A DNA stretch of 64,000 nucleotides, taken from positions 1,116,001 through 1,180,000 of the forward strand of contig NZ_AP026671.1 of the NCBI RefSeq assembly GCF_027946175.1. Direction: 5' to 3'. The stretch comes from Nitratiruptor tergarcus DSM 16512 (GTDB lineage: Bacteria; Campylobacterota; Campylobacteria; Campylobacterales; Nitratiruptoraceae). The notes under the pieces were generated by a model. That model worked only from the letters and a program-made list of their open reading frames with translations. It was not told the DNA's origin and did no database searches. Below, one piece after another: positions 33,198-44,726 of the stretch; position 1 is the stretch's first letter; every line of letters begins with the position of its first letter. A program made the position numbers and the translations under genes.

Positions 33198-34181
33198 TCA
33201 CCCAAACTTTTTTATTATCTCATCTACTTTCGATCTTTTAACTTTTTGCACTAAAACCACTTCATTTGTTAGCTTTTCTTCTTTATACTCATCAAATATG
33301 TAAAAATTATTATTGTATTTCTCTTTGAGAGTATGATAGGTATTGTCTTTTCGTGGATCTCTTTCAATGAGAAAGTGACCCTTTCCAAGCACTACTTTGC
33401 GAAGTAAAATATCATCTACCTCTTCAATAAGAAATTCTATTTTCTCTTTTTCTATAACACCACCCTCTTGGAGCCTTTTGCGCAGTTTCAGTAGCATTTT
33501 TGGATAATCGCTTGCTATAAGATCTGCACCTCTTTCATGCATGGCAATGGCAAGATCCTCTTCATTGACTGTCCACACTCCAACTTTGAGATGGATATTG
33601 TGTGCAAACCTGTTGGCTTTAGCTGTAGCTATTCGATAGTGAGGCAAGACAAGAGCACATCCAAGCTGCTTTGCATCTGGAATTTTGCCTGGAGGATAGC
33701 TATATACAAGACCTGTAGTAATAGTGCTATCAAGGCGTTTTACTTCACTTACAACCTCTTCATAAAAGCTTATAATACATACATCTTGCTGCATCTGATA
33801 CTCTTGCACAAGCTCTACTACCTTTTGACACGTATCAGGCTCTTTAATCTCCAAAAACATAGCAATTTTGCCTTTTGCGCTCTCAAGCGCTTCAGCCAAA
33901 GTGGCTACAGGCTCACTATCTTCAATGAGGATATTTTCTTTGATATATGCAAATTCAAGCTCTTTAGCCTCTTTTGCCACACCAGCCACCCTCTCAAAAT
34001 CGCTATCGTGCAAGAGTATCAACTCACCATCTTTGGTGCTGCGGATATCTACCTCTACAATATCGGCTTTGATACGAATAGCATGTTTTATGCCTTTGAT
34101 AGTGTTTTCAGGAACTTCTAATCCCCCACCTCTATGTGCTATAACACCAAAAGGCTTTTGATTGAGTGCTTTTTCAATCAT
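33198..34181 (-). CDS. Glycerophosphodiester phosphodiesterase family protein
   Basis: About 327 residues from the ATG at 34181, which overlaps the preceding reading frame in the usual way; a TTG at 34208 is the alternative. The N-terminal 225 residues form the GDPD barrel: AHRGGGLEVPENT, EVDIRSTKDGELILLHD with metal-binding Glu/Asp, and AMFLEIKEP. It hydrolyses glycerophosphodiesters to glycerol 3-phosphate and an alcohol. About 100 C-terminal residues, including LLRKVVLGKGHFLIER, do not belong to the usual domain and I do not recognise them. No signal peptide is seen. It is the last gene of the long minus-strand run. Confidence 0.82.
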   Translation of the reverse strand: MIEKALNQKPFGVIAHRGGGLEVPENTIKGIKHAIRIKADIVEVDIRSTKDGELILLHDSDFERVAGVAKEAKELEFAYIKENILIEDSEPVATLAEALESAKGKIAMFLEIKEPDTCQKVVELVQEYQMQQDVCIISFYEEVVSEVKRLDSTITTGLVYSYPPGKIPDAKQLGCALVLPHYRIATAKANRFAHNIHLKVGVWTVNEEDLAIAMHERGADLIASDYPKMLLKLRKRLQEGGVIEKEKIEFLIEEVDDILLRKVVLGKGHFLIERDPRKDNTYHTLKEKYNNNFYIFDEYKEEKLTNEVVLVQKVKRSKVDEIIKKFG

Positions 34182-34692
34182 TTTGAATCTTTTCTGTAAG
34201 AATTGCAAGAGCTCTCTCTTGCTCTTTTGGAGAGAGTTTTCCAGCTTTATAGAAAACTACTTTGCCCTCTTTATCAACAATGACAATATCTTGATTTTGA
34301 TCTGCTAATCCCCACTTTTTAACGAGGATCTTCTTATTATCTTTCACATAGATAGTTTATGGAAACTTCTTTTGCTTCTTTTTCAAAATTGCATTGAGTA
34401 AAAAGTTTGGCATCCAGGTAGCTGCCATATTGATAATAGCAACTGATCCATACTTGCTTCTATCAAAATTTTTTGCTTTGACTTTTTCAAAAAACTCCTC
34501 ATTGAGATCTCTTTTATCGGGATCGCTATACACAAGGAGGTAGACCTTGCCGCGAAGGGATGAGAGGTCAAATGCACCACCACTCACTAGTCCTCCATCT
34601 TTCTTATCAAGCACCACTTTTGGCACTATACTTCCTATCTCAATACCTAAGCTAAAGATAACCAACATTACAAGTAATGCTATCTTTTTCAT
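34174..34692 (-). pseudogene. YtfJ-like thioredoxin-fold protein interrupted by an in-frame stop
   Basis: The frame starts at ATG 34692 (overlapping the NosL stop as ATGA) with a signal peptide, then KVYLLVYSDPDKRDLNEEFF and VAIINMAATWMP as in the YtfJ family. It stops at TAA 34357-34359 after 111 codons. The same frame continues without a shift for 60 more codons (TIYVKDNKKILVKKWGLADQ, then IVIVDKEGKVVFYKAGKLSP) to TGA at 34174, supplying the missing C-terminal part of the fold. A single base change in one Lys codon (AAA to TAA) explains this. It may be a recent pseudogene, a readthrough case or a base-calling error; the truncated product would lack the last strands. Confidence 0.75.
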
Positions 34693-35159
34693 TTTTGCTC
34701 CAAAAATCGTTTTCTAATGGCAGGATTTGTCATATTCTCTCCTCTTGCCATCATTGCCAAAAACTCTTCAAATCCTACTGCACCAGCTACCTTTTTCTCA
34801 TAAGCACCAAAGCCATAATTCATTGGAGTTTTATCTCCTAATTTATACCAAGCCTTGCGTGCATCAATATAGCGGTGTGTATCATCAGTATAAATCCAAA
34901 GTTTTATTTTGTCTTTCTCTTTTTGGTTGAGATACCACTTTGCCAAGCATCCTGGATCATCAAAAAAATAGACTCTACCATTTGGCATAATAGCTTGGGC
35001 ACTATGGAGTTTCGTTTCAAGCTGCATAGTACACTCTACACACTGCACTTCACCCGGTTTAAAGATTACCGGCTTTCCATCTTTGCTTTTTTTATAGACT
35101 TCAATCTTCTCACATCCCACAAAAAAAAGAAAAAATAGTAATAAAAAAACTCTCTTCAT
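34689..35159 (-). CDS. nosL: NosL-family lipoprotein
   Basis: About 156 residues from the ATG at 35159, supported by AGGAGG just upstream. The signal peptide ends in a lipobox (LFFVGC), so it is a lipoprotein. The NosL-type metal site is CVECTMQL, followed by IMPNGRVYFFDDPGCLAKW; a second Cys follows as in other NosL proteins. NosL binds Cu(I) and helps load nitrous oxide reductase. Here it lies with an ABC transporter, a second NosL-like protein and a TonB system rather than beside nosZ, so the client is open. Confidence 0.78.
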   Translation of the reverse strand: MKRVFLLLFFLFFVGCEKIEVYKKSKDGKPVIFKPGEVQCVECTMQLETKLHSAQAIMPNGRVYFFDDPGCLAKWYLNQKEKDKIKLWIYTDDTHRYIDARKAWYKLGDKTPMNYGFGAYEKKVAGAVGFEEFLAMMARGENMTNPAIRKRFLEQK

Positions 35160-35167
35160 CTCTCCTC

Positions 35168-36118
35168 CTAAAAGAGCCATACACCATTTTTGAGATAGTA
35201 GCTTATGACATAATATGTAAGTATCAATGTAAAAACTATATCAAAAAGAAGCGCTAATTTTACTGAAGAGACAACTCCTAATGCCTTCTTGACCCCTACT
35301 GCGATACCTAAAAATGTCCCTAAAAAGAGCAGTGTATAGAGAACGTAGCCTATATAATAGTACTCCTTTTGCAAAATACAAAAGGGGCAGTGATGCGTAG
35401 GTAATTCATAGATATAAGGAGAGAAAAAGAAGATAATCGCCAAAATGGCAATGAAAATAAATGTCACACTCAAAAATGCAAAAATATAGATCCTCTTATA
35501 AAAAACTATTAACAGAGCAAGATTACCATAAAAAAGCCCTAAAAGCAGTTTTGGCGGAATATGGGATAAAATCCCTAAAGCGCTCTGTCCAACAGGATTA
35601 AAGAGCACTCCACAGCAACTTACAATCTTATTCACATCAAGGGCATGAAAATAGGCATATTCAAGCAATAGTTCAGCGACAATAAAAAGATAGAGCAGCA
35701 CAAACAAGCGAAATTTGAGCTTTGTATAGGCGTAATCGATGGTTTTCATATCAAGTGCGTTGATAACAAGCCAGATACCAAAGAGGTAGATATTAAGAAT
35801 TTTCACACCAAAAAGCCATACACCATAAGGATTTGCCGTAACAACACCAGCAGCGCACATTGCGCCAGGGATAATATTGGAGAGTTTATCAAGAGTGTAT
35901 ATAAAATAAAAAAGAAGAATGATTTTAAAAAAGAGAGCAAACTTAATAATCGTAGCGGCCAAATAACTTTGACGTAATAATGCATACTGTCTTGGCGTAT
36001 CGGCATTATAATCAAACCACAAAGAGATCTTTATACTAATTATCCATGCAATACTCAAAAAGATAAAAAGCAGCGTATCTAAAAAGAGATTGATAAAAAC
36101 CTCAGGAGAGAAAAACAT
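35168..36118 (-). CDS. Polytopic membrane protein with cysteine motifs
   Basis: A 316-residue protein with about eight membrane helices. I do not recognise a named family. Visible features are three cysteine sites that could bind metal or act in thiol chemistry: GAMCAAGVVTANPYG, VSCCGVLFNPVG and HHCPFCILQKEYYY (CPFC next to two His, placed after a membrane helix). It overlaps the ABC ATPase gene by 17 bases and is followed after 8 bases by the NosL lipoprotein. Context suggests a partner of the transporter or a metal/thiol carrier; this is inference. Confidence 0.6.
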   Translation of the reverse strand: MFFSPEVFINLFLDTLLFIFLSIAWIISIKISLWFDYNADTPRQYALLRQSYLAATIIKFALFFKIILLFYFIYTLDKLSNIIPGAMCAAGVVTANPYGVWLFGVKILNIYLFGIWLVINALDMKTIDYAYTKLKFRLFVLLYLFIVAELLLEYAYFHALDVNKIVSCCGVLFNPVGQSALGILSHIPPKLLLGLFYGNLALLIVFYKRIYIFAFLSVTFIFIAILAIIFFFSPYIYELPTHHCPFCILQKEYYYIGYVLYTLLFLGTFLGIAVGVKKALGVVSSVKLALLFDIVFTLILTYYVISYYLKNGVWLF

Positions 36119-36785
36119 TGCCCTCTCTCACTTCATAAATCTCATCTACAATTTCTAGATCGGCAAATCTGGGATCATGTGTGGCAATTACTATCGTCTT
36201 GCCCTCTTGCTTTAATTGGCCTAAAATCTGCAAAAACTGCTCAGTAAGAGCACTATCGAGATTTGCTGTGGGCTCATCTGCTAAAATAATAGGAGGATTG
36301 TCTATGAGTGCTCTTGCAATGGCACAACGCTGCTGCTCACCGCCGCTCAGTTTCCTTACAACCATATCCTTTTTGTGTGCAATTGCAAAGCGCTCCATAA
36401 CTGCACTAGCCATCAGCTCAAGCTCTTTTAGAGGAGTTGGAGTAGGAATTAATGGGACTATCACATTTTCAAAAACTGTGAGATCTTCTAAGAGATTAAA
36501 TTTTTGAAAAATAAAGCCTATCTTTTCTCTTCTATATACAGCTGCAAATCTATCTGGAAGCTTTGAGATAGTTTGCCCATCTACTACCACTTTTCCACTT
36601 GTAGGTCTAGTGAGTGCCGCAATGAGTGAAAGGAGCGTACTTTTGCCACTCCCACTTGGCCCCATAAGAAGCACAAGAGAGCTCCTTTTTATTTGCAAAC
36701 TTACATCTTTTAAAGCCACAACCTCTTTTGCAGTACCTAAATTGTAAATTTTACTCACTTTTTCCAAAGAAATAATAGCACTCAT
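36102..36785 (-). CDS. ABC transporter ATPase, MacB/LolD type
   Basis: A 227-residue ATPase with Walker A GPSGSGKST, signature LSGGEQQRCAIARAL and Walker B IILADEPTANLD. The closest group is the LolD/MacB/FtsE class that powers FtsX-like permeases acting on the periplasmic side. The permease is encoded directly upstream (four-base overlap). Confidence 0.85.
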   Translation of the reverse strand: MSAIISLEKVSKIYNLGTAKEVVALKDVSLQIKRSSLVLLMGPSGSGKSTLLSLIAALTRPTSGKVVVDGQTISKLPDRFAAVYRREKIGFIFQKFNLLEDLTVFENVIVPLIPTPTPLKELELMASAVMERFAIAHKKDMVVRKLSGGEQQRCAIARALIDNPPIILADEPTANLDSALTEQFLQILGQLKQEGKTIVIATHDPRFADLEIVDEIYEVREGNVFLS

Positions 36786-37939
36786 CGTATCGCCTCTTCT
36801 GGATCAATAACTGCCGCTCGCCAGCTTGGAACAATCGTTGCAGCTAAATAGAGAGGCACAAGAATTAAAAAGATGCTCACTGCAATGGAGGGCTCATACA
36901 CCACCATGAGATCTGCTTGGGGTTTGAGAGCTGAAAAGCCGCTAAAGAGATTGCGTAAAAGAGGCGCTTGTAAAGCAAAAACAAAGAAGTAGCTCCCAAT
37001 CACTCCTACCAAATAGGAGCTCCCTATCACAATCAAACTCTCTAATAACTTCAAAAACAAAACATCCTCTATGCGCCACCCTAAGGCTTTGAGAATACCA
37101 ATCTCTTTAATCTGCTCTTTTCCTACACTGCTAGCTTTTTCAAATACCAAGATAAAAAAGGCAAAGAGTGCTCCAATAAAAAGCGCCAAAAAGAGTCCAC
37201 TCTTATAATCAAAGAGGTTTTGATAGCTAGTTCGCAGATCCTCTTTTGTAATAACACGGGTATCGGGATAGAGTGTGCGTAGTTTAGCAGCGATGGTACG
37301 CATCTCTTTTGGATTTTGGAGTTTCACAACAATATCTGTAGCCTCATTTTTTGGAAGTGCAAAGATTTTTCTTGCTAACTGCATCGGAACCAATATCGTA
37401 TCACTCGCTTCTAGTGCACTTTGTGCTGGGAAGGTACCTGCAAGTTTAACCTTGATAAAATCGCCTTGGGGAGTGATAAAGTTGAAAAAATCTTTATAGT
37501 AGTGGTTTTGTAAAACTCTCTTTACCCCCTCTCCTACTACCATAAAATTACCTTCTGCTTCTGTGTTGGCAATAGCTTCATTGAAACTCTCTTTATAGCT
37601 TACATCATCAAAATCGATCCCCCCTACACTAAAATTGACTCCAGCAGGTGCGTAGTAGTAATACCCCCACACACGTGGCATTGCCCAGGCTATACCACTG
37701 ATATTTTCAATTTTTTCAACTCTTTGCATATCTATTGGAGCAAGTCTTCCAGCTGCTACCTTTTGCACATAAATATCAGGTAACGCATTAAGAGTAACAA
37801 AGAGCTCCTTTTTGAGCGAAGCTGCAATCAAAAAAACACTCATAACAGTAAAAATGAGCAGACTAAAAATTATAAAAAGACTCACATTTTTCCATACTCT
37901 TCGGCGCAATGATGCTAGCGCAAAGGCGAGCATTTTCAT
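36782..37939 (-). CDS. ABC transporter permease, MacB/FtsX type
   Basis: A 385-residue permease with one N-terminal helix (about 18-40), a large periplasmic domain (about 45-240) and three C-terminal helices forming the FtsX domain (KEIGILKALGWRIEDVLFLK near the cytoplasmic coupling loop). Such machines transmit ATP-driven motion to periplasmic lipoproteins rather than moving a substrate through the membrane. The neighbouring NosL proteins are natural partners; similar NosL-linked transporters exist near nos genes in related bacteria (general recollection). Confidence 0.8.
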   Translation of the reverse strand: MKMLAFALASLRRRVWKNVSLFIIFSLLIFTVMSVFLIAASLKKELFVTLNALPDIYVQKVAAGRLAPIDMQRVEKIENISGIAWAMPRVWGYYYYAPAGVNFSVGGIDFDDVSYKESFNEAIANTEAEGNFMVVGEGVKRVLQNHYYKDFFNFITPQGDFIKVKLAGTFPAQSALEASDTILVPMQLARKIFALPKNEATDIVVKLQNPKEMRTIAAKLRTLYPDTRVITKEDLRTSYQNLFDYKSGLFLALFIGALFAFFILVFEKASSVGKEQIKEIGILKALGWRIEDVLFLKLLESLIVIGSSYLVGVIGSYFFVFALQAPLLRNLFSGFSALKPQADLMVVYEPSIAVSIFLILVPLYLAATIVPSWRAAVIDPEEAIR

Positions 37940-38232
37940 TGAATTTGATCCTTTGCATTGAGATAGGGTGGAGGCGCATAGATAAAAGTACTTGGAAAAT
38001 AGGGAGAAAGCGAAGGACCATATCCAAAAACCTCAAAAAGATTTGTAAGAGACCTGTGGCGAATGCAGTGCGCTTCAGTACTCATTGCAAGATCTGGTAG
38101 CTGCAAGAGGTGCACTACTGCTCTTTTTTGCTGCACACTTCCATGCTGCTTATGCATAATCCAAGCAGTCTGCCCTCCCCAGAGTAAAATAAAAAGAATA
38201 AAAAAAACAAAAAGATAGAGATATCTATTCAA
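37936..38232 (-). CDS. Small anchored periplasmic protein
   Basis: A 98-residue protein with one N-terminal membrane helix (about 4-22) and a soluble tail likely in the periplasm. The tail contains EAHCIRHRSLTNLFEVFGYG (a Cys and His close together) and a Pro/Tyr-rich end. I do not recognise it. It overlaps genes on both sides by 4 to 8 bases in the ABC/NosL run, so it is probably a component of that system. Confidence 0.5.
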   Translation of the reverse strand: MNRYLYLFVFFILFILLWGGQTAWIMHKQHGSVQQKRAVVHLLQLPDLAMSTEAHCIRHRSLTNLFEVFGYGPSLSPYFPSTFIYAPPPYLNAKDQIQ

Positions 38233-39241
38233 GTTCTTGTAACACCTCTTTATTTATTTGTGAAAACCGTAAAATTTTCTTTCCTTTATGATCATTCAAA
38301 AAGCTCTTTGCATCTTGCAAAGATTTAAATGGAATCAACTCTTTACCCATAGGTCCATACACATCACTGCCTAAAACATAGTAAGCTTTTGTAGCATCTA
38401 CTGCTTCTCCACTGTAGTAGTCACTCACATAGGCTCGCTTAAATTTATGGTTTTGGAGATATTTCATCATATCTTTGACACCATCAAAGTAGAGCTTTCT
38501 CCCCTCTTCATCAACAATCATCGTAGCCCACCGAGGATGTTTTGCTACAAACATTCCACATACAGGACATTTTGCATCTTTTGGTACATGAATATGTTTT
38601 TTGTGCTGTTTTTGCCACAGATAGAGCGCCACTGCTTGGAGTTTTTTACCTTGGAGGTTACAAAGATGGTTTTTTACAATATGCTCTTTGAGTTTGGCTA
38701 AAGAGGCAAACTCTCCATCAACCTTTTTACAGTGCTTTTTATAAAGAATTTTACCCATCATTGCCATTTTTTTCTGCTTGTGAGCAATTTTTGCTTGCTC
38801 TTTTGCAAACATTTTTCGCTGCAAAGCAAAAGCCTCATCAAAGCGCATGATTTTTCCACCATACTTCTTTTGAAATGCTTTAGCATCATCTATCGAACTA
38901 AAGGCAATTTTACTTTGCATACTCATCGTCCCAGGTACACTGCTGCCTACTACATAGTAAGCATTTTGTACAGGGATGAACTTACCGCTTTTTGCATCGA
39001 CTACCATTATTTTTGCAATTTTATCTTTTATATGTGGATAAACTTGCGCTAAGCAGTGCATAGAGCATAGCTGCATCTGCTTGCCATCTTTGAGTACAAC
39101 AAGGTGATTTGTTTTATAAAATTTTGCAAGATTCATACCACACACACTGCACCATTTTTGATGAAGTTCTGGATGTAGCATCGACTTATTAAAAGCAAAG
39201 AGTGCAAGAACAAAAAACATTGGAAGCAGTAGTTTTCTCAT
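38225..39241 (-). CDS. Two-domain NosL-like protein
   Basis: A 338-residue exported protein with a signal peptide (about 1-20) and two NosL-type domains in tandem. The first has WCSVCGMNLAKFYK and LCSMHCLAQVYPH (CxxCGM plus a CxxHC pair); the second has CPVCGMFVAKHPRWATMIVD. Both end with a segment of the same type (AYYVVGSSVPG... and AYYVLGSDVYGPMGKELIPF). A Lys/His-rich linker with several Met joins them. Both sites look suited to soft metals such as Cu(I). Duplicated NosL domains in one chain could pass metal between sites; this is inference. Confidence 0.78.
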   Translation of the reverse strand: MRKLLLPMFFVLALFAFNKSMLHPELHQKWCSVCGMNLAKFYKTNHLVVLKDGKQMQLCSMHCLAQVYPHIKDKIAKIMVVDAKSGKFIPVQNAYYVVGSSVPGTMSMQSKIAFSSIDDAKAFQKKYGGKIMRFDEAFALQRKMFAKEQAKIAHKQKKMAMMGKILYKKHCKKVDGEFASLAKLKEHIVKNHLCNLQGKKLQAVALYLWQKQHKKHIHVPKDAKCPVCGMFVAKHPRWATMIVDEEGRKLYFDGVKDMMKYLQNHKFKRAYVSDYYSGEAVDATKAYYVLGSDVYGPMGKELIPFKSLQDAKSFLNDHKGKKILRFSQINKEVLQELE

Positions 39242-39282
39242 AAATCCCCCTTTGCTTTGATTATAGAGCAGAAGTGTTAAAT

Positions 39283-40098
39283 TTATCTTAATTTATACTC
39301 TATAGGAACTATAATCTTTACACACTCTTTTGGTGCTGGAAAATCGCGGCGAGCCTTATTTATTGTTTTGATTGCAGCCTTATCCAAGATTTTGTGTCCA
39401 CTCGATTGTAAAATCTCAATATTTTCTATCTCTTTTTGGGGAGTAAGCTCAAAACATACACGTACAATACCCTCTTTTTTTGTTCGTCTTGCCACTCTTG
39501 GATAGTATTTATGTTTTTGGATAGCCAAGCGGATCTTACTTGCAAAACGAGTGGTATATTGCTCTGCATAGGAAGGTTTGCGAGGAGGCTGAGGATGAGG
39601 CTTTTGGGTGCTACTCTTGTTTTTGTTTTGTGGTAGTGTTTTTTGCACAGAAGTTGTGTCTACCACCTTTTTCTCAATTTTTTTTACACTCTTTTTTGCA
39701 ACCACTTTTTTTAGCTGAGGTTTCTGTTTTGGCTTACTATGTTTTTTTGTTATTTTTCGAGGTTTTTTTATAGTTTTTTTGGGTTTTAATAGCTTTTTTG
39801 GTTTTTTTAGTGTTTTTTTTATTATTTTACGTGGATTATTTTTTGGTTTTATATTTGGTTTTTGCTTAAGAACCTCTTTTTTGGGAAATTGCGTTTTCTT
39901 TTTAGGAGGCCTTTTTATAGTTTTATGCATTTTACAATTTTTACAGGCACATTTTTTGCAACTGCACTCTTTTTTTATTTTTATATCACTAATAACCACT
40001 CTTTTTGGCAACTCTTTTGGCATGGAAAAATTAAATTGAGAAATAAGAGCAAAAAGAGCTGCATAGAAAGCTAGTGTTATAAAAAAGGATCGTTTCAT
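39283..40098 (-). CDS. tonB: TonB-type energy transducer with Cys-rich metal motif
   Basis: A 271-residue TonB protein: membrane anchor about 5-25, a long Pro/Lys-rich periplasmic spacer (about 60-170), and the C-terminal TonB domain (YPRVARRTKKEGIVRVCFEL, then EILQSSGHKILDKAAIKTI). Just after the membrane anchor lies ECSCKKCACKNCKMHK (residues 44-59), with C45, C47, C50, C52, C55, M57 and H58, a soft-metal-binding pattern that I do not know from ordinary TonB proteins. It is encoded with ExbB and ExbD, with a four-base overlap with exbD. The outer-membrane receptor it serves is not in this window. Confidence 0.82.
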   Translation of the reverse strand: MKRSFFITLAFYAALFALISQFNFSMPKELPKRVVISDIKIKKECSCKKCACKNCKMHKTIKRPPKKKTQFPKKEVLKQKPNIKPKNNPRKIIKKTLKKPKKLLKPKKTIKKPRKITKKHSKPKQKPQLKKVVAKKSVKKIEKKVVDTTSVQKTLPQNKNKSSTQKPHPQPPRKPSYAEQYTTRFASKIRLAIQKHKYYPRVARRTKKEGIVRVCFELTPQKEIENIEILQSSGHKILDKAAIKTINKARRDFPAPKECVKIIVPIEYKLR

Positions 40099-40469
40099 TT
40101 AACCGTTTCTACTGCAATATTTGTAAAACCTTCTGTTTTTAAAAGATCCAAAACCTCAATAAATACTTCAAACTTTGCATTTTTATCAGTACGAATGAGT
40201 ATATTGCTCTTTTTATTAAGAGAGAGGAGTTTATTCTTAAGTGTAGCTAAAGTTACAGGATCTTTAAAGTAAAAGATCTTGCCATCTTTTGTAATGGAGA
40301 GCTCTATTTTTTTTACTGGCAGATTCTTTGCAGAACCTGCTTTTGGGAGATCAAGAGGAATAGCACCTTTGGCAATAAAGGTTGCAGTTGTTAGTACTAT
40401 CACCAATAGCACCAACATAATATCGATAAAGGGGATAACATTAATTTGATCAAACTTTTTGAGCTGCAT
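40095..40469 (-). CDS. exbD: ExbD biopolymer transport protein
   Basis: A 124-residue ExbD/TolR protein with one membrane helix (about 10-33) containing the essential Asp (D16 in VIPFIDIMLVLLV) and a periplasmic domain (about 50-120). With ExbB it uses the proton gradient to energise TonB. It overlaps exbB by 20 bases and tonB by four. Confidence 0.87.
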   Translation of the reverse strand: MQLKKFDQINVIPFIDIMLVLLVIVLTTATFIAKGAIPLDLPKAGSAKNLPVKKIELSITKDGKIFYFKDPVTLATLKNKLLSLNKKSNILIRTDKNAKFEVFIEVLDLLKTEGFTNIAVETVK

Positions 40470-40884
40470 GTACTATATCCCATCGTGCAAGCAAGACTTC
40501 TACACGTCTTATCAAAAAGTTGTACATCATCGTTGCTGGAATTGCTACAACCAATCCCATTGCAGTGGCTTTGAGTGCAAGAGCAAGTCCAATCATAATC
40601 TCTTTTGTATTGACAATGCCATGCTGTCCCATTGTATAGAAAGTAAGCATAATTCCAAGCACCGTCCCAAGGAGGCCAATATAGGGAGCAGAAGAAGCAA
40701 TGGTGGCAATCAAAGAGAGATAATCGGTGAGTTTAACTTCTAACTCCTCTTTATTGCTAAACTCTTCAAGCTTGATACTTCTAAAATAGAGCAGTCTTTC
40801 AATAAAAAACCAGACACTCAAAAAACTCATAAAGATTAAAAAACCAATTATCCCATAGTCGATAAACTCTTTTAAGTGATTCAT
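40450..40884 (-). CDS. exbB: ExbB/TolQ-type proton channel protein
   Basis: A 144-residue ExbB protein with three membrane helices. The conserved core is IASSAPYIGLLGTVLGIMLTF and LALKATAMGLVVAIPATMMYN. It is shorter than the E. coli protein, as is usual in Campylobacterota TonB systems. It follows the histidine kinase with a four-base overlap. Confidence 0.87.
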   Translation of the reverse strand: MNHLKEFIDYGIIGFLIFMSFLSVWFFIERLLYFRSIKLEEFSNKEELEVKLTDYLSLIATIASSAPYIGLLGTVLGIMLTFYTMGQHGIVNTKEIMIGLALALKATAMGLVVAIPATMMYNFLIRRVEVLLARWDIVHAAQKV

Positions 40885-41717
40885 ACTTTTACCTTTGTAA
40901 GATCCAGAGTCACTTTCGTCCCCTTCCCTTTTTCTGCATCAATTGAAATCCTGATATTCTCTTCATCACAAAATCTTTTTACAATATTGAGCCCTATACC
41001 ATATCCTTCGTTTTTGTCTGTTGCGCGATAGTATCTATCAAAAACTCTCACAAGATCTGCATCGCTCATGCCGATGCCATTATCTTCTATCACAAGTTTT
41101 GCATCTTTGACAATGATTTTAATCAATCCATCTTCTGGCGTATACTTTATCGCATTGGATAAAATATTATCAAAACTTTTTATAAATCCAATTTTTGGAA
41201 GATTGACCTGCAAAGGCTGTAAATCTATGTAGACTCTTTTTTTTTGTAACAACTCTTTAAAAAACTCTACGCGATCTTTTACAACTTCAGCTACATCAAA
41301 ATGCTCTCTTGTATCTTTGTCTATCTCTTTTTTTATAAAAAAATCCACCTCTTTATAGAGTGCTAAGAGTTGTTCACTTGCTTTTGCTATGCGCTCAAGC
41401 CTCTTTTGCGATTTCTCATGGGGGCAGGATTTTTTGAGCATCGCTACATTGGCTTTAATGGTAGCTACTGGGATATTGAGCTCATGCAAGGTATCTTTGA
41501 GCAGATTATCAAGCTCACTATTTTGCTCTATCAGTGGAGAAAAGGCATATTTTGCAAAAAGATACCCAAGCATAACCACTAAAAGCGCTATAATCGCACC
41601 TAAAATCCACAAATAGTTCCAGCCAACATTATCGATCCACAAGTACCCCACAAATAGAAGCAAAAAAATAGAAACCCCATAGAGGAGCATAAAAGCAAAG
41701 ATATCTCTACTTTTCAA
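40881..41717 (-). CDS. Sensor histidine kinase with short periplasmic loop
   Basis: A 278-residue kinase with two adjacent helices (about 8-27 and 34-55) joined by a loop of only a few residues (WIDNVGWNY), so it has no separate periplasmic sensor domain and may sense within the membrane or through partners. The phosphoacceptor is H78 in DTLHELNIPVATIKAN; the ATPase has NILSNAIKYT, IEDNGIGMSDADL and EGYGIGLNIVKRF. It overlaps the response regulator upstream and exbB downstream, so it is likely to control this gene run. Confidence 0.84.
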   Translation of the reverse strand: MKSRDIFAFMLLYGVSIFLLLFVGYLWIDNVGWNYLWILGAIIALLVVMLGYLFAKYAFSPLIEQNSELDNLLKDTLHELNIPVATIKANVAMLKKSCPHEKSQKRLERIAKASEQLLALYKEVDFFIKKEIDKDTREHFDVAEVVKDRVEFFKELLQKKRVYIDLQPLQVNLPKIGFIKSFDNILSNAIKYTPEDGLIKIIVKDAKLVIEDNGIGMSDADLVRVFDRYYRATDKNEGYGIGLNIVKRFCDEENIRISIDAEKGKGTKVTLDLTKVKV

Positions 41718-42363
41718 ACTTATATCCCACGCCTCTTACATTTGTAATAGCATCCTTGCCAAAAATCTTCTTGAGTGTATTCACATAGACACGCAAAGCC
41801 CCATCACTTACCACTTCATCTGGTTTCCAAAGATACTCATAAATACGCTCTTTTGTAACAATCTTTTTGCGATTTTTTACAAAAAGCTCCAAAAGCTTCA
41901 TCTCTTTGGGATTGAGCTCTATGACTTCATCTCCCTTTTGCAATTTCATCTGCTTGATATCAAAAACATACTGATCTATTGCGATTTTTTCTGCACCATA
42001 GCTTCTGCGCAGTAAAGCTTTTATGCGAAGAGAGAGTTCGTCCAAGTCTACAGGCTTTGTCATATAATCATCAGCGCCGCGTAAAAACCCCTCTTTGATG
42101 TCCTCTTTTTGATTTTTGCTCGTAATAAAAATGGCTGGCGTCTCATCCCCACTCTTGCGCAACTCTTCTAAAAGCGTAAAGCCATCCATCCCTTCAAGCT
42201 TTACATCAAAGAGATAGAGATCATATTTGGTGTGATAGCAAAACTCTAAAGCCTCTTTTGCATTCACTGCCCAATCAACCCTATACCCCTCCTCTTGCAA
42301 AAACTCCTCTACTGTCTCCCCAAAGAGCTCATCATCTTCAAGCAGCAAAACTCTATATGCCAC
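41707..42363 (-). CDS. OmpR-family response regulator
   Basis: A 218-residue regulator with receiver domain (D53 in [13 protein letters not shown], Lys in [13 protein letters not shown]) and a winged-helix domain ([30 protein letters not shown]). It pairs with the kinase encoded next, overlapping by 11 bases, and overlaps pyrC by 11 bases. Its place between pyrC and the TonB/NosL genes suggests that it autoregulates the downstream part of the run. Confidence 0.86.
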
Positions 42364-43360
42364 CCGCTATCCTCCATGCTAAACTTTCGCCTGCAAACAT
42401 TGGCACTACATTGTTGTAACTTGAAGGAACTTCAAATGGCTCTTTTACAAGTTTGACCTCTTTTTTTGGTGGAGTGATACCATAAATATTTTGCGCATTA
42501 TCGCTCACAAACTTTTGCAGATTCTCTAGTACCCCTGCTGCTTCAAAGAGCTGGGCTAGAGCTGGGAGTGCAATAGGAGCAGTAAAGACCCCGGCAGCAC
42601 ATCCAGGAGCTTCCTTTTTATCTCTTGGATGGGGAGCGCTGTCACTCCCAAACATCACCTTCTCATGTGCCATGAGTGCTACTTTGCGCAAGGCCATGCG
42701 ATCTTCTGGTCTCTTTGCGATTGGTTTACAGAATAGATGTGGCTGCAAAAGTCCGCCTGCTACATCATCAAGAGTAATGTAGAGATGGTGCAGCGTAATA
42801 GTGGCGTAGAGATTTTCATACTTCATCAAAGCATCTACCGCATCTTTTGTCGTGATATGCTCCATTATTATTTTGAGATCTGGAAATCTTTTGGCTATGC
42901 GCTCATAGATAGGAATAAACTCAGCTTCTCTATCCATCACAAAGCCATTTGTCTCTCCGTGTACGCAAAGAGGAATACCCAGCTCACTCATAGCTTCTAA
43001 TGTTGGTGCTAGAGCCTCAACACTAAAATTATCTACACCATCTTCACTATTTGTGGTAATTCCAGCTGGATAGAGTTTTATAGCTAAAATCGAATCTTTT
43101 ATATCAGCTAAAAAGGCATAATCATACTCTGGTCTAAAAAAAAGCGTCATATATGGCTCAAAAACCTCATCGCCCATTGCCTCTTTGATACGCTCTTTGT
43201 AGCTTTGTACCATCTCTTTAGTTGTTACAGGTGGTACGAGATTTGGCATCACTAGAGCACCTGCAAAGCTTTTGGCACTTAAAGGGGCAACAGTTTGGAG
43301 CATCTGTCCATCGCGCAGATGCAGATGCATATCAAGTGGAGAGTGGAGCGTCAATTGCAT
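42353..43360 (-). CDS. pyrC: Dihydroorotase
   Basis: A 335-residue zinc hydrolase of the E. coli PyrC type, closing carbamoyl aspartate to dihydroorotate in pyrimidine synthesis. DMHLHLRDG gives the metal-binding H-x-H; AIKLYPAG holds the carboxylated Lys; [16 protein letters not shown] and FGSDSAPHP give the remaining ligands. Length is standard. It overlaps the phosphomannomutase gene by 29 bases. Confidence 0.92.
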
Positions 43361-44726
43361 GTGCTACCTTTCTAAGAAGTTCTATTGTTTTTTGTTGATA
43401 AAGCTTGGCAAGTTCAGGACTTTTTGCTTCAAAGCGCGTCACAAGTACTGGCGTAGTATTGGAAGCTCTCACAAGAGCCCATCCCTCATCAAAGACAATG
43501 CGCACACCATCTACATCGATAATCTCTTTGATAGGAGGAAAATCATCTGGTGGCATAGCAAGAGCCTCTTTAAGCTTTTCAATAATGGCAAATTTTGCCT
43601 CTTCGCTTGTATGGATCTTAATTTCTGGTGTATTATAGACCTTTGGAAGTGAGGCTACTTCTGCATCAAGATCAACTCCCCTATATACAAGTTCAAGTAC
43701 TCTTAGCATTGCATATATTGCATCATCATATCCAAAATAGCGATCATTAAAAAAGAGATGGCCGCTCACCTCCGCTGCAAAATCGGCATTAGTTTGGGCA
43801 ATTTTTACTTTAAGATTGCTATGGCCAGTTTTATACATAATCGCTTTGCCAATTTTGTTTATCTCATCATACATCACCTGAGAGCACTTTACTTCACCAA
43901 TGACTGTAGGATTATCAAGCTGTTTAGCAAAGATAATTGCAAGTTCATCTCCTTTGAAATTGTGCTGCTGTGTTAGTACTGCAATGCGATCTGCATCCCC
44001 ATCAAAAGCAAAACCCAAATCTATAGCTTTCTCTTTCATTGTTTTTTGCAAATCTTTGAGATTCTCCTCTTCACTTGGATCTGGATGGTGATTGGGAAAT
44101 GTTCCGTCTGGTTTGCAATAGAGACCTTCGTAAGAGATATCAAGCCCTTTTAGAATCGGCTCAGCAACAATGCCAGCTACGCCATTACCACAATCTATCG
44201 CTATTGTTTGCTCAAAATCTCTCAAATGTGAAAAATTTTCTAGCATATATGCGATGTAGCGCTCTTTTGCATCAATTGGATAGTATTTCTCATCATCTGC
44301 TATTACTATATCACTCGCTAGTACCTCCTCTCCAAGTGCATAGATATCTGCTCCAAAGAAGGGGTTCTTATCAACTGTAATCTTAAAGCCGTTATACTCA
44401 GGGGGATTATGCGATCCTGTAATCATCACTGAAGCACTAGGAGTTACCTTTTTACCATCTATCTCAAATGTTTGAAAATTACTAAAGTAGTTAACTCCCG
44501 TTGGCACCATGCCCATGCCAAGTACACGTTTACCTGCTGCATTGATGCCACTTGTAAGCCATTGAAAGAGTATTGGCGAGTGAGTACGTGCATCATACCC
44601 TACTGCAATATATTCACCAAGAATCCTTTTAGCTAAAAAGTAGCCTATTTTTTTTGTAGTTGTTTCATTAAGCTCTTTTTCAAATATTCCACGAATATCA
44701 TATTCACGAAAAATACTCTTTGCCAT
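43332..44726 (-). CDS. Phosphomannomutase/phosphoglucomutase
   Basis: A 464-residue alpha-D-phosphohexomutase of the AlgC type. The phosphoserine loop is [18 protein letters not shown], the magnesium loop [13 protein letters not shown], the sugar-binding motif near EVSGHLFF and the C-terminal phosphate loop [15 protein letters not shown]. It interconverts hexose 1- and 6-phosphates for surface polysaccharide and cell wall precursors. It is the first gene of the long minus-strand run and has its own promoter. Confidence 0.9.

Follow-up and report, generated by a model that had tools for sequence, protein, structure and literature searches.

A conserved NosL and MacB-type gene cassette in Nitratiruptor tergarcus, a candidate copper-delivery system for periplasmic reductases

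Biological removal of nitrous oxide, a strong greenhouse gas, is mainly the work of nitrous oxide reductase, NosZ. The insertion of copper into this enzyme is understood for a single machine, NosDFY-NosL, in which the periplasmic Cu(I) chaperone NosL partners an ATP-binding cassette (ABC) machine in the cytoplasmic membrane. NosL is a Cu(I)-binding protein that serves CuZ, and CxM has been proposed as its Cu(I) motif (PMC6530538). Here we analyse a six-gene cassette (39241-34689, minus strand) in a 64,000-nucleotide stretch of the 1.94 Mb genome of Nitratiruptor tergarcus DSM 16512 (NZ_AP026671.1, positions 1,116,001 to 1,180,000), referred to throughout as the window. The cassette may deliver copper in an analogous way, and in other Campylobacterota it is traced to two copper enzymes, the respiratory sulphite reductase MccA and NosZ.

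MacB, LolCDE and FtsEX are ABC motors that act on periplasmic partners, and the accessory mcc genes of Wolinella, which are named up to mccL, include one that is NosL-like. MccA itself is presented as a haem c-copper enzyme in the part of PMC7558416 that cites Hermann (2015); no description of the route of copper into MccA was found in the literature searched. The energising partner published for the copper importers NosA/OprC is TonB-ExbB-ExbD (PMC7558416). Finally, the nos cluster of Sulfurospirillum cavolei has been drawn with a group of unexplained genes, a hypothetical gene, an ABC permease, an ABC ATPase and two further hypotheticals (PMC4794192), and this was the sole direct prior notice of the family found in literature searched under mcc, nos and TonB.

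Composition of the cassette

The first gene of the cassette (38225-39241) encodes a tandem, two-domain NosL protein, which matches PF05573 in two stretches (179.9 bits, E 3e-53, cut-off 24) and keeps a CxxCGM motif in both domains, with C34-x-M36 and C228-x-M230. The sixth (34689-35159) encodes a lipoprotein with the lipobox FVGC and a CxxCTM motif that is kept in most members. Although this lipoprotein misses the PF05573 cut-off (20.9 against 24 bits), its model (predicted local distance difference test, pLDDT, 93.7) has NosL of the NosDFYL complex as its best fold match in the PDB (7osf, E 9.7e-5), and its matches to 7osf_H, 7znq_L, 7osg_H, 7og7 and 7osj_H all have E below 5e-4 and a probability of 1.0. 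The putative Cu(I) motif CxM can be recognised in both tandem domains and, as CTM, in the lipoprotein.

Between the two NosL-type genes lie four others. The second gene (37936-38232) encodes a small protein with a single N-terminal transmembrane (TM) anchor; a small gene is found here in most cassettes, and no family match to this one was obtained in profile searches. The third (36782-37939) is an ABC permease in which both the MacB core domain (MacB_PCD, 32.2 bits, cut-off 27) and the FtsX domain (29.1 bits, cut-off 25.5) exceed their gathering scores and, with its cognate FtsE/LolD-like ATPase encoded by the fourth gene (36102-36785; ABC_tran 125 bits), it belongs to the MacB/FtsX, or type VII, ABC systems. 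The fifth gene (35168-36118) encodes a protein with eight TM helices from an undescribed family. Two NosL-type proteins and a MacB/FtsX permease with its ATPase had been named in an earlier note on the window, and those identifications hold, the lipoprotein by its fold.

The permease and ATPase resemble LolCDE, MacB and FtsEX in their domains, but they score far below the NCBIfam equivalog cut-offs (LolCE 41 against 362, LolD 193 against 308, MacB 185 against 966 and, for the ATPase, FtsE 207.7 against 264.9 bits), and their partners here are NosL proteins and the eight-TM protein. Compared with NosDFY-NosL the lipoprotein shares the NosL fold, whereas the permease is of the MacB/FtsX type, NosL is duplicated in tandem and the eight-TM protein is extra; no beta-helix NosD gene and no NosY gene are found in 39241-34689.

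Association with MccA and NosZ

The cassette was followed by searching with the eight-TM protein, the gene calls in other genomes being simple open reading frame picks. The gene is present in 106 of 298 Campylobacterota genomes and 26 of 58 genera, at 125 loci. Across 40 neighbourhoods the genes for the tandem NosL, the small protein, the FtsX-type permease, the ATPase, the eight-TM protein and the NosL lipoprotein recur, while the ends vary.

Of the genomes with a close MccA, all 48 carry the eight-TM gene, which in 47 lies 9.3-13.4 kb from mccA, inside the mcc cluster known from Wolinella succinogenes; in the remaining one mccA is at a contig edge. The cassette comes after the octahaem cytochrome cluster in the eight mcc loci fetched, in the order mccA-FKBP-FeS-NrfD-CcsBA-Sel1-nosL2-small-ftsX-ATPase-poly-nosLp, the genes ahead of it encoding an FKBP-type isomerase, an iron-sulphur (FeS) protein, an NrfD-like protein, a CcsBA-type haem lyase and a Sel1 protein. 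Where it was read, the product of the first gene has seven CXXCH motifs and one CX15CH and matches MccA of PDB entry 4rkm with 1355 bits. The MccA-linked eight-TM copies form one clade (support 99). The window differs from these loci, with the cassette sitting behind tonB in a genome where MccA was not found.

The association with nosZ is seen at several levels. The eight-TM gene is carried by 67 of 88 genomes with nosZ and by 39 of 210 without (tests at genome level used an evenly drawn sample and ignored phylogeny), and by genus 20 have both, six the cassette only, four nosZ only and 28 neither (p 7e-7, though genera are not independent). Where the two genes share a contig they lie within 21 kb of one another in 16 of 52 pairs, against about one expected, and these come from several separate lineages; one of the 16 (G208:C1:1589806) is even nearer to mccA. 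The nos-linked copies are scattered over the eight-TM tree with 13 label changes, at least nine of them forced by supported branches, among which losses may count. In one genome (G217, locus L040) the cassette stands between nosF and nosY. The gene order drawn for S. cavolei matches that of this nos-cluster cassette, compared by order and not by sequence, whereas the published genes are given as unexplained genes of that species with no tie to mcc, TonB or other genera. The earlier note had asked whether the gene order accompanies nosZ or other copper enzymes in relatives, and the cassette often does. Two nosZ genes look split, one read in two overlapping pieces and carrying a stop inside (G237:C15:19581-21372) and the other two halves with a 1.3 kb gap (G166:C1:870653-873755).

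Copper delivery is supported by these gene links, which are universal for MccA and recur in several lineages for nosZ. We therefore favour 39241-34689 as a self-contained cassette that loads copper into periplasmic copper-containing reductases, by analogy with NosDFY-NosL, and give this a probability of roughly 0.62; the metal, its direction, the client and the link to TonB are what we infer. Cu(I) would be held by the tandem NosL, at its CxxCGM sites, and by the NosL lipoprotein. The ATPase would power the MacB/FtsX-type permease so that periplasmic parts are moved, and copper need not cross the membrane. Relay of Cu(I), or thiol exchange, would fall to the eight-TM protein, which has five invariant cysteines as well as conserved Met and His at its periplasmic side, and Cu(I) would finally reach an apo-enzyme that has cysteine thiolates in its copper site. 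That client would be MccA or NosZ in relatives. In the window's own genome, which holds a separate, complete nos cluster, it is likely to be NosZ, because MccA is absent. A conserved cassette tied to both enzymes would be one testable copper-delivery candidate for the two.

Several observations weigh against this reading. The co-occurrence statistics at genome level take no account of phylogeny, and in the window's own genome nosZ is unlinked to the cassette, at a distance of 558 kb. The cassette is not required for NosZ, because 21 genomes, same-genus ones included, have nosZ without it. Conversely, 27 of the 106 genomes with the eight-TM gene lack both nosZ and a close MccA, and many cassettes adjoin unrelated housekeeping genes. 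The second cysteine of the NosL lipoprotein is often lost in MccA-linked cassettes, and a cysteine motif in the operon TonB, described below, also occurs in relatives without the cassette (five of seven). Lastly, both non-haem cysteines, 96 residues apart and taken here to be copper ligands, are also kept in a second MccA-like subfamily (37 genomes, 46-52% identity), and the cassette is found in only five of the 37. Since most of this subfamily does without it, enzymes of this kind have no general requirement for the cassette, nor can it serve to discriminate copper from non-copper MccA, a use that we considered and rejected. At the loci of the second subfamily (L100-L112) a gene for another multihaem protein comes next in the cluster, and L103 has a Sco-like gene.

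Beyond Campylobacterota, which make up most of the best 80 of the 381 related loci from a scan of the whole collection, cassette genes were also seen in assemblies labelled Ignavibacteriales, Acidobacteria, Proteobacteria and Neomarinimicrobiota (L151, L168, L183 and L207), through either transfer or mis-binning. Two loci have a reduced or very divergent cassette, with the ftsX, ATPase and eight-TM genes without the tandem NosL in L074 (G166), and the ATPase and eight-TM genes without a recognisable ftsX in L061 (G176).

The TonB operon and its tie to the cassette

The cassette belongs to a run of 15 minus-strand genes (44726-33198, counting a split ytfJ frame as one) packed so that adjacent genes share 4-29 bp or leave 8-41 bp between them, with the widest space, 41 bp, separating tonB from the first cassette gene. 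The earlier note was right about this packing, about a full TonB-ExbB-ExbD set and about there being neither nosZ nor an outer-membrane receptor within 33198-44726. The directon, however, does not start at the 44726 of that note, since same-strand ABC-2 permease/transporter genes end 38 bp upstream and, because the directon runs on into them, 44726 is no proven transcription start. Its gene list, sound for the parts it named, left out the housekeeping genes at the ends, pgm, pyrC and a glycerophosphodiesterase gene. A promoter and terminator scan gave counts close to those of shuffled sequence (35 against 32.7; 12 against 9.4).

By evolution there are two modules, A being pgm-pyrC-response regulator-histidine kinase-exbB-exbD-tonB and B the six-gene cassette. 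Module A opens with a pgm/manB-type phosphohexomutase gene (43332-44726), named from its sequence and in the same operon position in relatives, and pyrC, for dihydroorotase (42353-43360), likewise named from sequence, with 70-90% identity in four same-genus genomes. An OmpR-type response regulator follows (41707-42363), which matches many models of such regulators, every one below its equivalog cut-off, and then a histidine kinase (40881-41717) with two predicted N-terminal TM helices, whose sequence leaves hardly any periplasmic loop and has no sensor domain. The energy module consists of three genes in order: exbB (40450-40884), recognised by sequence and conserved gene order only, exbD (40095-40469; PF02472, 92.2 bits) and tonB (39283-40098; TonB_C, 71 bits).

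The two modules come apart within the genus. G030, the closest same-genus genome examined (pyrC 90% identical), reads pgm-pyrC-RR-HK-exbB-exbD-tonB-ytfJ-gdpd-groEL, where RR and HK are the regulator and kinase, and the six cassette genes are absent precisely between tonB and ytfJ. Three further same-genus genomes keep the part from the regulator to exbBD without the eight-TM gene. Conservation of the gene order in relatives, which the earlier note had made a test of its proposal, is nevertheless found, with the full order of both modules in three family members from other genera (L051-L053) and in environmental genomes (L134-L136 and L139); in 22 family genomes, 19 operon tonB genes have a readable flank, and the tandem NosL gene follows 12 of them. 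On the eight-TM tree the window copy falls in its own family's clade (support 95), nearest to that of Nitratiruptor sp. S143_81 (61-63% identity). The simplest reading of these sequences is that the cassette is ancestral in the family and has been lost repeatedly, the alternative being gain. A recent foreign insertion was rejected, as the G+C content of the cassette is 35-40% against 37% for the window and the tree keeps the eight-TM gene in its own family.

Right behind its TM anchor the operon TonB carries the cysteine-rich motif KKECSCKKCACKNCKMHKT (CxCxxCxCxxC, 39925-39966), and the protein matches Metallothio_11 with E 7e-4. Among 19 orthologues of the operon TonB in the family, 16 have the CxC motif, which none of nine paralogues and none of about 22 TonB proteins sampled in other Campylobacterota share. 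It accompanies operons with the cassette (11 of 12) and those without it (5/7), and so is a feature of the TonB operon. The motif is a sequence hint that the operon TonB handles a soft metal, and draws attention to TonB proteins bearing a metal-binding-like motif.

Alongside four TonB-dependent receptors, only two TonB-type sets were found in the genome, the ExbD-TonB of this operon being one. As for NosA/OprC, a TonB-ExbB-ExbD set is at hand and one receptor is best to the TonB-copper model (C1:1848205); unlike in that system, it lies outside the operon, about 693 kb away beside ccoN, and scores below the family cut-off (204 against 472 bits). At this locus (L087:7053-14001) the receptor gene adjoins a small membrane protein gene, regulators and ccoN/ccoO, and a protein similar by eye to one at L087 adjoins cassettes in L040, L069 and L132. 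The large neighbours of other families' cassettes that were checked by eye as possible receptors proved chemoreceptor-like or housekeeping, except in G057, where a nos cluster, a response regulator, exbD, tonB, a copper-type receptor and the cassette fall within about 22 kb (L090:3157-19664 and L048).

It is quite possible, if short of an even chance, that chance alone placed the TonB operon next to the cassette, the two being co-transcribed but without a common function, with the TonB set a general energiser of all receptors. The separability of the modules within the genus, and the finding of only two TonB-type sets beside four receptors, would fit this; the adjacency is, however, also present in the lineages f4 and f7, and the cysteine motif is specific to the TonB of the module A operon. 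Somewhat more doubtful is an integrated import system, in which a receptor driven by TonB-ExbBD would bring in copper, NosL would catch it, the ABC machine would import or deliver it and the kinase and regulator would control the whole. Many Nitratiruptoraceae share the order from pgm to nosLp, a regulator-exbBD-tonB set adjoins the cassette in G255 as well as in G057, where the receptor is best to the TonB-copper model and a nos cluster is near, and the TonB is cysteine-rich. On the other hand same-genus genomes retain module A without the cassette, TonB genes are missing from the surroundings of most cassettes, the operon has no receptor and the genome's own copper-type receptor scores well below its cut-off. 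For these reasons, the relatives, the missing receptor and the many cassettes without TonB genes, the single regulated uptake system proposed in the earlier note is weakened, while its suggestion of copper delivery gains from the linkage to nosZ and MccA.

In the copper-loading reading that we prefer, the cassette would ride on an older, regulated TonB-ExbB-ExbD operon, whose cysteine-rich TonB probably powers the import of a soft metal, for which copper is a plausible candidate, by way of a TonB-dependent receptor encoded in the genome. The cysteine motif and the adjacency in three lineages suggest that the TonB module may bring copper from outside.

The eight-TM protein, thiol chemistry and flanking genes

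Five cysteines of the eight-TM protein are invariant in all 38 members compared, within M87-C88, C168-C169 and H242-x-C244-P-x-C247. These invariant residues are in loops 2, 4 and 6, and loops 3, 5 and 7 are rich in Lys and Arg, so by the positive-inside rule the cysteines are predicted to be on the periplasmic side. For its model (pLDDT 90.4, predicted template modelling score 0.87), no fold match with E below 1 was found in the PDB or among viral models. Nor was there a PDB sequence match, or a Pfam family in the 38 members except for one marginal match.

The main rival to copper delivery is a thiol-redox or assembly machine, which would keep the cysteines of copper sites (CuA of NosZ and the copper site of MccA) reduced and correctly paired, with the eight-TM protein as a DsbB/CcdA-like relay of electrons or disulfides and copper itself left to nos or other chaperones. 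The CPxC and CC motifs are invariant and predicted to be periplasmic, both client enzymes use cysteines as copper ligands, and a gene for a thioredoxin-like YtfJ adjoins the cassette in several relatives. A DsbB-like reading of the CPFC motif is, however, unsupported by either fold or profile searches, in which the protein shows no shared fold with the solved DsbB/VKOR-type thiol oxidoreductases of the PDB or any other PDB fold and no Pfam match, and the presence of two NosL proteins bearing Cu(I) motifs of the CxM type points to metal. We consider the thiol-redox role unlikely. Detoxification, with the MacB-like ABC machine clearing the periplasm of metal complexes or of NosL lipoproteins that carry metal, is very improbable: MacB relatives are exporters, and one cassette with its own response regulator and histidine kinase (L091, G124) adjoins a set of RND, fusion and outer-membrane factor genes of CusCBA/CzcCBA size, but that is adjacency only and the prevailing context of the cassette is enzyme maturation clusters (mcc and nos) and not efflux.

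The cassette thus holds a widespread membrane protein with invariant cysteines whose fold has no known match. A bolder and tentative proposal, which we regard as possible but rather unlikely, is that the eight-TM protein, as the first member of a novel membrane fold, shuttles Cu(I) or thiols on the periplasmic side of the membrane and, with a MacB-type ABC motor and a tandem NosL, makes up a second, mobile class of copper-insertion machine serving MccA and NosZ, which in the Nitratiruptoraceae would be coupled to a TonB that binds metal through its metallothionein-like motif.

Downstream of the cassette, the ytfJ frame (34174-34692) is broken at 34357-34359 by a single in-frame stop, which is either a true nonsense change or a sequencing error; the gene is intact in four relatives. 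Its call as two small genes (34357-34692 and 34174-34347) was rejected, as the two are in the same frame and YtfJ_HI0045 matches both halves. The final gene of the directon encodes a glycerophosphodiester phosphodiesterase (33198-34178; GDPD 93.3 bits), which has a C-terminal DUF7132 domain at 31.3 bits, above its cut-off.

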